Positions 4,130-14,104 of a stretch of 32,368 nt of DNA are shown piece by piece. The stretch is from IMG/VR virus record IMGVR_UViG_3300032315_001010, positions 1 through 32,368 of that record; one strand, 5' to 3'. The number at the start of each line of letters is the position of its first letter. Within the stretch, counting starts at the first letter, position 1. The notes beneath the pieces are model-generated. The model did no database searches. It worked only from the letters and a program-made list of their open reading frames with translations, and was not told the origin of the DNA. Made by a program: the position numbers and the translations under genes. Source of the DNA: a virus.

Positions 4130-4482
4130 GTGCAAGTGACGTGATCGCGCGCCTGCGAGAGTTGCACGCAGAACACCTGAAAGCAGCGGGACCGTTCAAA
4201 ACGCCGCGCAACAGGAGGCCCCTCGACCATCTGCGCTTGGCCGACCTCGACCGCGATTTCGTGGCGGCTGCGTCTGTCGCCCTCCCCGCGCTGTTGGAGT
4301 GCGCGGAGGCTTTGGAGAAGGTTCTCGCCGCTTGCGATCAGGGTCGCATGGTTGAGCGCGGAGCGGGCGGCATGACCATCGCCGCGCAAATCCGGCGCAG
4401 CGTCATCAACGGCGTTCCGGCCATGCCGATAGAAGAAGCCCGCGCCGCACTTCAGGCGCTGGCGGGAGGGAGTGGGGAGTGA
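4126..4482 (+). CDS. Hypothetical helical protein
   Basis: This 118-residue protein starts at GTG 4126, four bases into the previous stop. An earlier in-frame ATG at 4099 lies inside the previous gene and is less likely. The protein is Ala/Leu-rich and mainly helical, with a short basic linker (TPRNRRPLDH) near residues 25-35. No domain was recognised. The stop overlaps the next ATG (TGATG). Confidence 0.65.
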   Translation: MSASDVIARLRELHAEHLKAAGPFKTPRNRRPLDHLRLADLDRDFVAAASVALPALLECAEALEKVLAACDQGRMVERGAGGMTIAAQIRRSVINGVPAMPIEEARAALQALAGGSGE

Positions 4483-4909: not shown

Positions 4910-5169
4910 GCACGACGCTGATCGAAACGCTGAAGCGGCTTGCCGACTACGAGGACGCCAACGACTACACGAAGACGGCAACTGACCTCCGCGCCGCAGC
5001 CGCCCGCCTCTCCGAGCTGGAGCGGAGCGTCGAAGGGCTGCGAGCAATGCACAAGCTGATTGCTATTAACCTTGGCGAGTACATTGACCGCGAAGGATCG
5101 GTTGATGTGACCGTCGCTCTCGCGTTTGAAACCGCACGCGCAGCACTAGCGGGGAGCGGGGAGAGGTGA
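4906..5169 (+). CDS. Hypothetical helical protein
   Basis: This 87-residue protein starts at ATG 4906 in an ATGA overlap. A continuous helical, partly coiled-coil stretch (about residues 4-50, heptad-like in LRAAAARLSELERSVEGLR) is followed by a second helix. The end ARAALAGSGER resembles the end of the 4126-4482 product (ARAALQALAGGSGE), another hint of local duplication. The stop overlaps the next GTG. Confidence 0.65.
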   Translation: MSTTLIETLKRLADYEDANDYTKTATDLRAAAARLSELERSVEGLRAMHKLIAINLGEYIDREGSVDVTVALAFETARAALAGSGER

Positions 5170-5357
5170 ATCCGCGCTCCTTCGCTGCACAACTTCGACG
5201 CGCCATCGAAGCCTATACCAAGGCCACGGGCGTTGTTCCTGTTGTGGAATTTGAAGGGGGCGAGCGCTACACCCTACGCCATCCGGGGACAGGGGCGACA
5301 GAATCCGACGAAGGGCGTAACCTCCAGCGCGAGCTGGATGGGGCCTTCAAGCAATGA
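5166..5357 (+). CDS. Small hypothetical protein before the integrase
   Basis: This 63-residue protein starts at GTG 5166 (GTGA overlap). It has a helix (AAQLRRAIEAYTKATG), a strand pair (VVPVVEFEGGERYTLR) and a charged end. It overlaps the integrase ATG by four bases, so integrase translation may depend on this gene. An excisionase/RDF role would suit the position and size, but no helix-turn-helix is visible, so it is left as hypothetical. Confidence 0.6.
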   Translation: MNPRSFAAQLRRAIEAYTKATGVVPVVEFEGGERYTLRHPGTGATESDEGRNLQRELDGAFKQ

Positions 5358-6532
5358 CGCGGATCAAGCTGCCCTATTACGTTGTAAGGAATGGGCGCGG
5401 CTATTTTGAGATCGGGAAAGAGCGGGCGAAGGATACCGGCCTGCTGGCGAGCGAGCCTCTGGGCGAGGATGGGCCAGAGGCATGGAGGCGAGCGCGGGCC
5501 AGCTATGAGGCGTACCTCGCCGCCCGCGATCCAAACAGCAAGCGACGGCTGAACGGCTACCCGCCAGGATCACTCGGCGCTGCCTACACGCTCTGGCGTG
5601 GAACGCCTGACTGGAAGGAAAAGGCCGCACGCACGCGCGAGGAATACGAACGCGCATGGGACGATCACATTGATCCGAACTTCGGGAAGCGGCCAATCAA
5701 CAAAATCACGGTTGCGGATTCGGAAGCTTTTCATCGCAGGCTTCAACGGGACATTTCGGCATCCGACGCGCACCGCACCCTGAAGATATGGCGGGCGCTT
5801 CTGAACATGCTGGCGAAGAAACACCTGATTGCCCGCGCGCCCATCGGGGCTGTGACTAACCCAATGCCCAAAGGACGGGGCCAGTTCTGGCTGGCGTCCG
5901 AGGTCGCGCGCCTGCTGCGTGCCGCCCACCTGCTGCACCGCTTCACGAAGGACGACAAATGGCAGGCTATGGGGCTGCTGGTCTGGCTGGGATGGGAAAC
6001 CGCCCTTTCGCCGGCTGACTGCCGCACCCTGACGCTTGCCATGCTGAAGCGCGATCGGTCGGGCTGGTATGTGGAACGCGAGCGGACCAAGACCGGCGCC
6101 GCAGCCAAGCCGCCTATCAGCGACACTCTGGCGGATGCCCTGAGCGCCTACGCTACGCGCGGCGGTCGGACACCGCTGCCCTCCGCGAACCTGTTCCACA
6201 ACTCGGCAGGCGATCCGATGGACCGCTTTTACATGGCCGACAATTTCAGGGATCTGCGCCGCGTTGCGTTCGGCAAGGGCGAGATCAGACAGTTCATGGA
6301 TATTCGCCGGTCAGCCAACCTTGAGGCCGATCTGGGCGGCGCCAGTGCGCAGGACCGCGCGGCGGTCATGGCGAACGCGCTGGACAAGAACAAGTCTCTG
6401 GACGCCGTCTATACGCCCGTCACCGTCGCACGCGCCAGGAAGGCTCAGGAGGCCCGTGGAGCGGGTCGTGCGCTGCTGGCGCAGGAGCTTGGACGGGCCA
6501 AGAGTCGGAAACCTCCCGCAGGGGGAGTTTGA
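5354..6532 (+). CDS. int: Phage integrase (tyrosine recombinase) with altered active-site boxes
   Basis: This 392-residue site-specific recombinase has a SAM-like core-binding region (about residues 70-165) and a C-terminal catalytic domain. The nucleophile Tyr353 is in DAVYTPV, Lys246 is in the beta-hairpin RTKTG, and Arg318 of box II is in MDIRRSA. The usual box II His is Met315, and box I reads ETALSPADCRTL with Ser219 where Arg is normal. Both changes are real in the sequence. Relatives that lack box I Arg occur in some bacterial integrase families, so activity is not excluded. The gene ends 46 bases before a tRNA-derived attP core, as expected for int. A weak CTCCC/GGGAG hairpin with TTT overlaps its stop. 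It is co-transcribed with the small-gene operon. Confidence 0.85.
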   Translation: MTRIKLPYYVVRNGRGYFEIGKERAKDTGLLASEPLGEDGPEAWRRARASYEAYLAARDPNSKRRLNGYPPGSLGAAYTLWRGTPDWKEKAARTREEYERAWDDHIDPNFGKRPINKITVADSEAFHRRLQRDISASDAHRTLKIWRALLNMLAKKHLIARAPIGAVTNPMPKGRGQFWLASEVARLLRAAHLLHRFTKDDKWQAMGLLVWLGWETALSPADCRTLTLAMLKRDRSGWYVERERTKTGAAAKPPISDTLADALSAYATRGGRTPLPSANLFHNSAGDPMDRFYMADNFRDLRRVAFGKGEIRQFMDIRRSANLEADLGGASAQDRAAVMANALDKNKSLDAVYTPVTVARARKAQEARGAGRALLAQELGRAKSRKPPAGGV

Positions 6533-6546
6533 ACCGTGTTTGAATT
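6525..6546. repeat. Candidate integrase arm-type sites, left side of attP
   Basis: GAGTTTGAACC (6525-6535) is followed directly, one helical turn on, by GTGTTTGAATT (6536-6546). The exact first motif recurs at 6697-6707 beyond the tRNA core. Repeats spaced by about 11 bp on both sides of attP fit integrase N-terminal arm-binding sites. The first copy overlaps the int stop codon. Confidence 0.45.
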
Positions 6547-6578
6547 TCCCGCGATGTGCGAGCTAAGTCCTTGTAAAG

Positions 6579-6628
6579 TGGCGATCCCGGCAGGACTTGA
6601 ACCTGCAACCACCCGCTTAGAAGGCGGG
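6579..6628 (-). other. attP: attP core: 3' half of tRNA-Arg(TCT)
   Basis: Read on the minus strand, this is the 3' half of a tRNA. It has an anticodon stem CCCGC/GCGGG with loop CTTCTAA (anticodon TCT, Arg), a 5-base variable loop, a T-arm GCAGG-TTCAAGT-CCTGC, a 3' acceptor strand CGGGATC, discriminator G and CCA (6581-6579). No D-arm or 5' acceptor strand lies on the expected side (above 6629), so this is not a whole tRNA gene. It is the segment a temperate phage carries to restore a host tRNA after integration. It lies next to int, with phage genes on both sides, which identifies attP rather than a prophage end. Confidence 0.88.
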
Positions 6629-6696
6629 GCATTACGTAACGTCAACAAGGTCAATTCAGACATTTCAGGCGTGAACGGGCGGGCAACAGCCAGTCA

Positions 6697-6707
6697 GAGT
6701 TTGAACC
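6697..6707. repeat. Candidate integrase arm-type site, right side of attP
   Basis: This is an exact copy of GAGTTTGAACC, also found at 6525-6535 on the other side of the tRNA core. Nothing else gene-like is seen between 6629 and 6709, apart from the palindrome TTACGTAA at 6632-6639. An integrase or host-factor binding role is inferred. Confidence 0.4.
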
Positions 6708-6709
6708 CC

Positions 6710-11545: not shown

Positions 11546-14104
11546 TCCGCTTTCCTGCCGCCCTATCGTTCCAGCGGACAGGCCGTGAGCTGTTAGCGTA
11601 AAGCGAAGGACAGCGGCCTCCGTCCCGATCTGCACAAGCGTTGGCGAGCTGTCACAGTTGCCGCCGTTCGCGCCTGAGTAGTCTCTGATCTGGTAATCGG
11701 ACGCCGCTCCGCTCACGACTAGAGACGGCGTTGTCCGCATCGCGGGGAAATTTACGATGCTGTCCAGAAGATTGGCGGTCGAGACCACCGCGAAATCGTT
11801 ATAAACGCGGTTCAATGTTCGTGGGATTGTGCGAAGATAGCGGGCGCAAGACGTCTCTTCTGCTGTAAAATCCCTGCACTGGCGATCCCACGGTGAATCC
11901 GTCAAGCCGTACTCAAATTGCGGCTCTGCAAGGTCCAGCGTAAACCCGGAATTGAGCGGAAGCGACAAGATGACATCCGTGTGGTCGTTTCCTCCAGAGC
12001 CAAGCGTCTTGCCGCTGATCGAAGGAACAGCAAACCGGAATCGGAATCTCTGCCAGGTCGTCGTGACTGTCTGGCTTGCGTCTTCGGTGTTGCAGTTTGT
12101 CACCACGTTGGAGGAAGGCGAGCCGCCCGTCCCGAAATCCTGATCCACCCTGCCCGAGAGCGCTATTGTTCCGCTTGAAACCTTCGCCCACACGGACAGA
12201 CAGCAATTGCGGCCTGAGAACCTCCTCACGTCTTCAACACGCTGCGAAAAGCCAAACGAAGTCATGCCGCTGCCAGATGTCACGACAATGCGCGCATAAT
12301 AGCGCGGCTCCCACGGCACATCCGTTTGACCAATCGTGAAGGTCTGCTGCGATATGGTCAGCCCAACAGGAGACCCGTTATAGTCAATTGCCCAGCCGTC
12401 GAGCGTGTAGGTATTGGCGGATGGAGACGCGATTGATGCGCCACGCGTTGCCCGCCAGAAGCCCGAATTTAGCAGATGATTGCGGCGCTCGTCCCGAATA
12501 CGCTGAAGGCCGTATTCAGACACATAGTTGATTTCCGCGTCACTATCGACCGACTCCGGGTGATAGCCGTTTATGACTTTGGTTTCCGGCCACTTGGGAA
12601 CATACTCGGTGTCAACCTCGCCAATCGGAACGAACATATTCCCGCCCGGCGATGCAGAAGTTGCATCGCGTGTGACTTTAAGGCTTTGGCCGCGCTGCAG
12701 CTTCCCGGAGAATGAGTTGTTGATCGGATAGTTGGCGCCGCTGACCACTACGCCTTCGAGGTATATCCAGCTTGCAGTCGTGGGCGCAGCCGGCGTTCCA
12801 AGCCCTTGGAACCATGTGTCATGCCAGTTGTTGGAATCGACAAAGCGAAGCCAGATACCAACGCCAGCGCGACCAGCGCTGACGCTGTGGTTAAGGTTGA
12901 CGATGAATTTGGTGTTTATCGACGTGTTGCGAACAGGGTCAAGGTTGGCGGCATCCCAACCGTCCCAGTAATCGCAGATCGCTGCGTAAGACGTAACGCC
13001 CGTGTATCCGTCAAACTCGCAATTGATGAAGACGTTGTCAGAAGGCGAGCGGATGGCGTATGCGAAATTCGCGGTGTCCAGCGTTGCGTTTGGAATTTGA
13101 ACAACCGACAGCTCGCGCAGCCTTTCGCGAACGCGATAAACCGCCACGTTTTCAAATGTTCCAAATGAAGCCGATGCAAGCCGATATCCGAATGACGCAT
13201 CGCCGCCACCATCAAGCACGATATTCTTGAGGCCGCATCCGCGAACGGGTCCGCGAATGTCCAGCATCCGACCAGCGGCAGCACCGACCCATACAAGCGT
13301 CGTCGCCGCTCTTGGTCCGTCGAAATCGTAGTTGATGGCCGACTCGCCACCACGTCCGCATAGCGTGACGTTGTTATAAGTCGATACTTGAGCCGTTGAC
13401 CCATCGCCGATGTTTATGGTGCTGGAAATGCCAATACGAGCGTCGGTCGCGTGGGGCAGCCAAACGCTTCCACCTCCTGCCAGGCCACAAGCTGCGATCG
13501 TGCTGTTGATGGCCGTGGCTTGGTTAGCAAGAGAGACAATGCAGCCGAACCATGCGGCCTCAAAGTTTCTACCGTCGAACTGTCGGAAGAAGCGCCCCGC
13601 GGCGCCGCCGTCAATCGCCAGGATTGTGCCGCCGTTTGCGGTTGCCGTAGACGCGCTGTCATAGCGCCAGAAGCCAGCGCCGCCGTCTTCTTCAGTGGCG
13701 CGGGCGTAAGTGTAATAGATGCCGTTATCAACAAGGCCGGTTGCTGCCGTCAGCGCGGTCAGCGCCGCATATGTCGCCACATTCAAGGGCGTGAGGACTG
13801 CCGCGCCGGCCGCGTCCAGTTCGGCCGGAACATAGATCGTGTCATACGTCACCGCCCCGGCAGCGTCCGTGATGGTGAACGCATAGGACAGCGCGGGGTT
13901 GACGTAGACGACACGACCAGCGGCACCCAGCGTGGCCGGGTTTGCGGCAGGCGTCGTCAGCTCCGGGTCGGTGTAGAACGTGCGGCGCGTGGCGGTCGGT
14001 GCGCCGGCAGAGGTCGGAACCCAGCCATTGACCTTAAACGAGGACGCGACTGTGCCGTTAGCTGCGACAGCGGGGATAAACAGCGGGGCGCCAGTTGCGG
14101 CCAT
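11510..14104 (-). CDS. Tailspike / receptor-binding protein with beta-helix
   Basis: This 864-residue virion protein should bind and possibly cut host surface glycan. The N-terminal 120 residues (FYTDPEL.., then AAGRVVYVNPALSYAFTIT, TYDTIYVP) recall the head-binding domain of P22-type tailspikes. Residues about 155-560 have the Pectate_lyase_3 beta-helix pattern (AINSTIAACGLAGGGSVWLP, then repeated short strands). From about residue 565 (LLNSGFWRATRGASI, QRVEDVRRFSGR, FGTGGSPS, WQRFRFRF, TLGSGGND) comes a carbohydrate-binding jelly roll common at the ends of phage fibres. ATG 14104 has GGAG about 9 bases upstream. It is the last virion gene of the block, as gp9 is in P22. Confidence 0.87.
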   Translation of the reverse strand: MAATGAPLFIPAVAANGTVASSFKVNGWVPTSAGAPTATRRTFYTDPELTTPAANPATLGAAGRVVYVNPALSYAFTITDAAGAVTYDTIYVPAELDAAGAAVLTPLNVATYAALTALTAATGLVDNGIYYTYARATEEDGGAGFWRYDSASTATANGGTILAIDGGAAGRFFRQFDGRNFEAAWFGCIVSLANQATAINSTIAACGLAGGGSVWLPHATDARIGISSTINIGDGSTAQVSTYNNVTLCGRGGESAINYDFDGPRAATTLVWVGAAAGRMLDIRGPVRGCGLKNIVLDGGGDASFGYRLASASFGTFENVAVYRVRERLRELSVVQIPNATLDTANFAYAIRSPSDNVFINCEFDGYTGVTSYAAICDYWDGWDAANLDPVRNTSINTKFIVNLNHSVSAGRAGVGIWLRFVDSNNWHDTWFQGLGTPAAPTTASWIYLEGVVVSGANYPINNSFSGKLQRGQSLKVTRDATSASPGGNMFVPIGEVDTEYVPKWPETKVINGYHPESVDSDAEINYVSEYGLQRIRDERRNHLLNSGFWRATRGASIASPSANTYTLDGWAIDYNGSPVGLTISQQTFTIGQTDVPWEPRYYARIVVTSGSGMTSFGFSQRVEDVRRFSGRNCCLSVWAKVSSGTIALSGRVDQDFGTGGSPSSNVVTNCNTEDASQTVTTTWQRFRFRFAVPSISGKTLGSGGNDHTDVILSLPLNSGFTLDLAEPQFEYGLTDSPWDRQCRDFTAEETSCARYLRTIPRTLNRVYNDFAVVSTANLLDSIVNFPAMRTTPSLVVSGAASDYQIRDYSGANGGNCDSSPTLVQIGTEAAVLRFTLTAHGLSAGTIGRQESGSSGLLLLSAEL

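Follow-up and report, generated by a model that had tools for sequence, protein, structure and literature searches.

Directly beside the integrase gene of this phage lies the 3' half of a tRNA gene with short repeats on both sides, and the question that the locus raises is whether this arrangement forms the site at which the phage recombines with the chromosome of its host. The window, that is, the whole stretch of DNA analysed here, is the IMG/VR record IMGVR_UViG_3300032315_001010, which comprises 32,368 bases and is classed as linear. We consider it very probable (roughly 0.93) that positions 6503-6707 represent the attP of a temperate, podovirus-like alphaproteobacterial phage whose host is probably a member of the Hyphomonadaceae, and that this site is used by the integrase encoded at 5354-6532 on the tRNA-Arg(TCT) gene of the host. 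An attP in the 3' half of tRNA-Arg(TCT) had been proposed in an earlier, sequence-only reading of this DNA, and it is upheld by the identity of the core to host genes, by the flanking phage genes, by constant spacing and by the attL and attR sites of two relatives.

The core of the site (6579-6628, with the tRNA on the minus strand) reaches from the CCA end as far as the 5' strand of the anticodon stem. Followed along the minus strand from 6628 to 6579, it contains a perfect anticodon stem with a TCT anticodon (CCCGC-CTTCTAA-GCGGG), a T-arm (GCAGG-TTCAAGT-CCTGC), the acceptor strand and CCA, all of which the sequence-only reading had named. The same reading had stated that the 5' half of the tRNA is absent. 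This agrees with the behavior of two programs: ARAGORN called no tRNA gene at the core, while the Rfam tRNA model gave a score of 31.8 bits, where the cut-off is 29, and matched the 5' half poorly.

A pattern of the core with three free positions was scanned against a collection of 84,980 species genomes. Nine genomes matched, all of them labelled Hyphomonadaceae or Alphaproteobacteria, and in each of the nine the matched locus is an intact tRNA-Arg(TCT) gene that carries the letters of the attP even at the free positions of the pattern. Identity to the host genes spans exactly 6579 to 6628 (50/50 bp) and ends at 6628 in 9/9 cases, the very boundary that had been proposed for the core. The 3' tRNA part carried by the phage is therefore identical to that of intact host genes, and because this identity covers 50 bp, integration would leave the sequence of the tRNA unchanged. 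Judging from the nine matching genomes, the host is likely to lie in or near the Hyphomonadaceae.

In lambda, a 7-bp spacer (the overlap) separates the inverted core sites. The core of the window has the same design, since the anticodon loop (6617-6623 on the minus strand; TTAGAAG when read on the plus strand) is a 7-bp spacer flanked by CCCGC and GCGGG, the inverted halves of the anticodon stem. By analogy with the lambda-type 7-bp overlap, this loop is likely to be the region of strand exchange. Similar sites are used by the tyrosine integrases of islands and prophages that target tRNA genes, where the 3' tRNA part brought in by the phage restores the gene and the breakpoint lies at the anticodon arm. 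From these the site of the window does not differ in principle; what is particular to it is the target, tRNA-Arg(TCT) in Hyphomonadaceae-like hosts.

One arm of the lambda attP carries tandem arm sites together with an IHF site, and the other carries further sites. In the window, too, arm repeats flank the core, with tandem sites and an IHF-like site on one arm, and the attP is in itself of an ordinary, well-known kind with a lambda-type layout. It differs from that of lambda in its core, the 3' half of tRNA-Arg(TCT), and in its repeat word. The word GAGTTTGAACC occurs exactly twice in the whole window, both times on the plus strand: at 6525-6535, where it overlaps the stop codon of the integrase gene, and at 6697-6707, as the outer right arm site. 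A related copy, GTGTTTGAATT, directly adjoins the first at 6536-6546 in tandem, 11 bp from start to start. The exact repeat on both sides and the related copy 11 bp on had been described before, and as far as sequence comparison goes these three sites are confirmed as real. To them we add two weaker plus-strand sites, AGTCGGAA at 6503-6510 within the end of the integrase gene and CGTGAAC at 6670-6676 on the right arm, together with a plus-strand IHF-like site, TAAGTCCTTGTAA, at 6564-6576 between the core and the left arm sites. When the 231-bp region was dinucleotide-shuffled 2000 times, 15 of the shuffles contained an exact 11-bp direct repeat, and among real 231-bp segments of this phage 20 of 643 contain one; in view of the latter figure, the GAGTTTGAACC repeat taken alone is modest evidence. 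What lifts the repeats beyond chance is that relatives conserve them at fixed distances from the core.

Four phages have the tRNA-Arg(TCT) core, namely the window, L002, L026 and L027, and their integrases are 60-99% identical (67% for L026 and about 60% for L027, in both of which the core adjoins the integrase gene as it does in the window). In a four-way alignment the core hardly varies, and divergence of the arms spares only islands that coincide with the repeats. Counted from the CCA edge of the core, the left islands lie at -76 to -79 (AGTCGGAA), at -53 to -56 (the GTTTGAA-type repeat, GAGTTTGAACC in the window) and, 11 bp on, at -42 to -45 (the tandem copy). On the right, CGTGAAC, with diverged flanks, and AGTTTGAAC, at the outer site, stand at exactly +91 and +119 in 4/4 phages. 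Repeats on both arms thus keep their spacing to the core, and the earlier suggestion that they are candidate arm sites of the integrase is well supported by this comparison across relatives. The IHF-like site is found at -15 to -17 in the window, L002, L026, L027, L028, L029, L031 and L046. It agrees with the consensus at 8/9 positions in the last six of these, a score with a background of 0.31 per kb, and at 7/9 in the window and L002; that the window itself reaches only 7/9 was counted against the attP reading.

L002 shares with the window a plus-strand block of 95% identity over exactly 5167-6709, starting at a 63-aa open reading frame that overlaps the integrase gene and ending two bases past the outer repeat. 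Outside this stretch there is no further match between the two, as would be expected from the exchange of a complete unit of integrase gene and attP. Megablast of the phage collection returned no matches.

Wider searches for relatives of the integrase gave 28 viral loci and nine genomes. The more distant relatives target other tRNAs, mostly tRNA-Asp. The integrase gene adjoins the 3' end of an intact tRNA-Asp(GTC) gene in L028, L029, L031, L044, L070, L071, L073, L074 and L075, of a tRNA-Trp gene in L043 and of a tRNA-Ser gene in L072, while 3' fragments of tRNA-Asp occur in L046 and L052, a tRNA-Pro-like fragment in L032 and, seen by eye, a tRNA-Arg(CCT)-like 3' half beside the integrase gene of L019. 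Integrated relatives with both ends visible are present in G792 (copies at 471 and 18,099) and in G603 (6.7 kb apart). Their attL and attR are direct repeats of about 50 bp, with the CCA end at one edge and the 5' strand of the anticodon stem at the other, the stretch equivalent to 6579-6628. Comparison of attL and attR with 6579-6628, a check proposed along with the original reading, was therefore positive for these tRNA-Asp relatives, and it rests on them because no integrated tRNA-Arg(TCT) relative was found. No integrated close relative came to light in the genome scan with the integrase, in the nine tRNA-matching genomes or, with a strict cut-off, in 385 genomes belonging to the class, and searches of the family and order yielded more distant integrated relatives only. 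That none of the genomes searched holds an integrated copy in tRNA-Arg(TCT) counts against the attP reading. With the patterns used, no second core copy (attR) was found for G753, G749, G634, G562 and G540, and larger stretches around the distant integrases of L017-L021 yielded neither a tRNA call nor any copy of the repeats.

In nine att sites, we determined the longest word common to both arms and compared it with shuffles. The shared words of most sites exceed nearly all shuffles; the weakest is that of L027, whose left and right arms share a word of 9 bp only, matched by 10.7% of shuffles, which counts against our reading. The tRNA-Arg clade uses GAGTTTGAACC and variants of it, and elsewhere the words are AGTCGGAACGGC (G603), AAGTTGAAACCG (G792), TTTGGAAAGC (L032) and AAGTGTCACA (L046 and L052). 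The start of the right copy lies between +116 and +120 in 8/9 of these sites; in G603 it is at +129. A comparable site is present in the Microcystis phage vB_MweS-yong2 (OM681334), which has an integrase about 30% identical to that of the window, the same convergent arrangement of integrase and lysozyme genes and a tRNA-Arg(TCT)-like 3' half, beginning at L023:4209, with repeats around it. Its repeat word, AAGTCGGATG, is unlike that of the window, and the outer right copy stands at +118; the stretch of the OM681334 record that was viewed has no att site annotated. Taken together, these are ten att sites with six repeat words, and in all of them the distance from the CCA end to the outer right-arm repeat is 116-129 bp. 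The arm word varies between members while the outer right position stays put.

The integrase gene (5354-6532, plus strand) encodes a protein of 392 aa, which PHROGs, Pfam and its predicted fold identify as a divergent arm-binding tyrosine recombinase. Recognition by sequence is weak (PHROGs phrog_216, integrase, E 5e-5; Pfam Phage_int_SAM_3). We created an AlphaFold model from 29 homologues (mean pLDDT 84, pTM 0.62), residues 1-371 of which align with residues 8-356 of full-length lambda Int (Z 18.0, rmsd 14.2). The large rmsd is probably due to a differing orientation of domains in the model, and the value against the core-binding and catalytic part of lambda Int alone is 3.0. The model thus predicts arm-binding, core-binding and catalytic domains, and its N-terminal region matches the fold of full-length lambda Int.

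The catalytic residues depart from the canonical pentad RKHRH plus Tyr. At the position of lambda R212 all 38 relatives have S, A or Q, and at that of H308, the His of HxxR, none of the 38 has H, the residue being M, L, Q, A, T, R or K; unlike lambda Int, the window integrase has S for R212 and M for H308. Lambda K235, R311 and Y342 are kept in 38/38 relatives, and five residues beyond the lost Arg, at lambda position 217, an Arg is invariant in 38/38. HMMER against XerA and hhalign against lambda placed the first-Arg position alike. The downstream Arg may act in catalysis. Two precedents make such a variant plausible: in IntCTnDOT the first Arg is displaced and a downstream Arg substitutes for it, with biochemical support, and in IntDes, described from Desulfovibrio only, the first Arg is displaced and another residue stands in for the first His as well (Smyshlyaev et al. 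2021, PMC8138268). The window integrase resembles both as an arm-binding tyrosine recombinase with a displaced first Arg, being likened to them by this shifted-Arg feature alone, and the family shares with IntDes the replacement of the first His. It differs from IntDes in the residues that replace the His, given above, and in its mainly alphaproteobacterial hosts.

With the first Arg and the HxxR His replaced throughout the 38 relatives, and with the repressors YopR and SroF among the fold matches, one might suppose that the integrase-like protein is non-catalytic, as in the integrase-fold repressor YopR, and that another recombinase uses the site. We consider this very improbable, however, as the Tyr, Lys, second Arg and displaced Arg are invariant in 38/38, the integrase gene adjoins the att core in most relatives examined, and the scanned ORFs of the window include no other recognisable recombinase. 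Moreover, the integrated elements of G792 and G603, with their matching attL and attR, carry the same catalytic variant, which argues for its present or recent activity. The integrase variant, for which IntDOT and IntDes offer precedents, is worth testing. We would give slightly less than even odds to the proposal that it belongs to an undescribed, mainly alphaproteobacterial subgroup of arm-binding integrases that lacks the first Arg and the HxxR His and uses an Arg five residues downstream, the attP geometry being fixed, with some 118 bp between the CCA end and the outer right arm site, and the arm word and target tRNA varying. A literature search with partial coverage gave no description of this subgroup.

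The position of the site in the phage map bears on a second alternative. An S24-type repressor is encoded at 1776-2438, to the left of the att site, and genes for an endolysin, tail fibre, head closure, major head protein, portal and terminase follow to the right on the opposite strand; on this far side L002 and L027 also have an endolysin gene, and L026 has a DNA methyltransferase gene. Since the convergent integrase and lysis genes flank the att site, it is interior to the phage map. Together with the flanking genes of the relatives, this supports the earlier view that the window depicts an excised circle or virion DNA, and a tandem prophage would give an identical map. The tRNA fragment might instead be a junction with the host chromosome (an attL or attR scar) or between tandem prophages, rather than the attP of one phage, and a single linear contig is compatible with tandem prophages. 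This seems to us even less probable than a non-catalytic integrase: the tRNA has no 5' half, no host genes adjoin it, phage genes flank it in the window and likewise in L002 and L027, and both arms recur at conserved spacing in four phages. A tandem-prophage junction, moreover, would still hold this same att site.

Least probable of all is a decayed or chance piece of tRNA flanked by chance matches, as the 20/643 frequency might suggest, or by leftover pieces of tRNA, as might be thought because the repeats are alike to the complement of the T-loop (TTTGAACC) and 6586-6603 is 72% alike to 6690-6707, whereas all 50 core bases match host genes, the islands are conserved at fixed distances, and relatives with other tRNAs carry an unrelated repeat sequence at the same distance.

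If 6503-6707 is indeed an attP used by the adjacent integrase, the N-terminal domain of the protein would bind the repeats on both arms and its core-binding and catalytic domains the anticodon stem, and bending of the DNA at 6564-6576 would fall to the host's IHF or a protein like it. In the host tRNA-Arg(TCT) gene, strand exchange would take place within or beside the 7-bp anticodon loop. After integration, the 50-bp core of the phage would rebuild the 3' half of the tRNA, leaving the integrase gene beside the restored gene. The attP gives a precise clue to host range and a candidate integration site for Hyphomonadaceae. Its relatives allow integrases to be matched with arm-site words at a fixed geometry; such a set is useful for studying how arm-binding domains choose DNA and, if the subgroup proposal is true, would be a natural series for reading the recognition code of the arm domain. 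The integrase family also offers a test of a tyrosine recombinase working with the first Arg and first His of the pentad moved or lost.

The 63-aa open reading frame upstream of the integrase gene (5166-5357, plus strand) overlaps its start codon by 4 bp and is conserved in L002 (100% identity), L026 (76%) and L027 (67%). L028, L029, L033, L036 and others have in its place a protein of about 96 aa with the look of a helix-turn-helix protein. As a guess, either could be a directionality factor.

Some further observations concern individual relatives. The stretch 4209-4436 of yong2 (L023) has a tRNA-Arg(TCT)-like 3' half that matches alphaproteobacterial relatives although the phage is named for a cyanobacterium, and it may lysogenise an alphaproteobacterium instead of Microcystis. 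Just outside this half, yong2 has a match to the Rfam mmgR (suhB) sRNA of 47 bits; an attB in this sRNA was considered and dropped because the tRNA-Arg(TCT)-like half stands nearer the integrase gene. L019 contains tandem repeats at 13499-13887, with offsets in multiples of 12 bp, near its related integrase. In G019, a segment of at least 10.7 kb that includes a related integrase occurs in two copies of 100% identity, one on contig C13 and one on contig C36 (L017 and L018); one copy reaches the end of its contig, and the pair is either a repeated element or an assembly duplicate.
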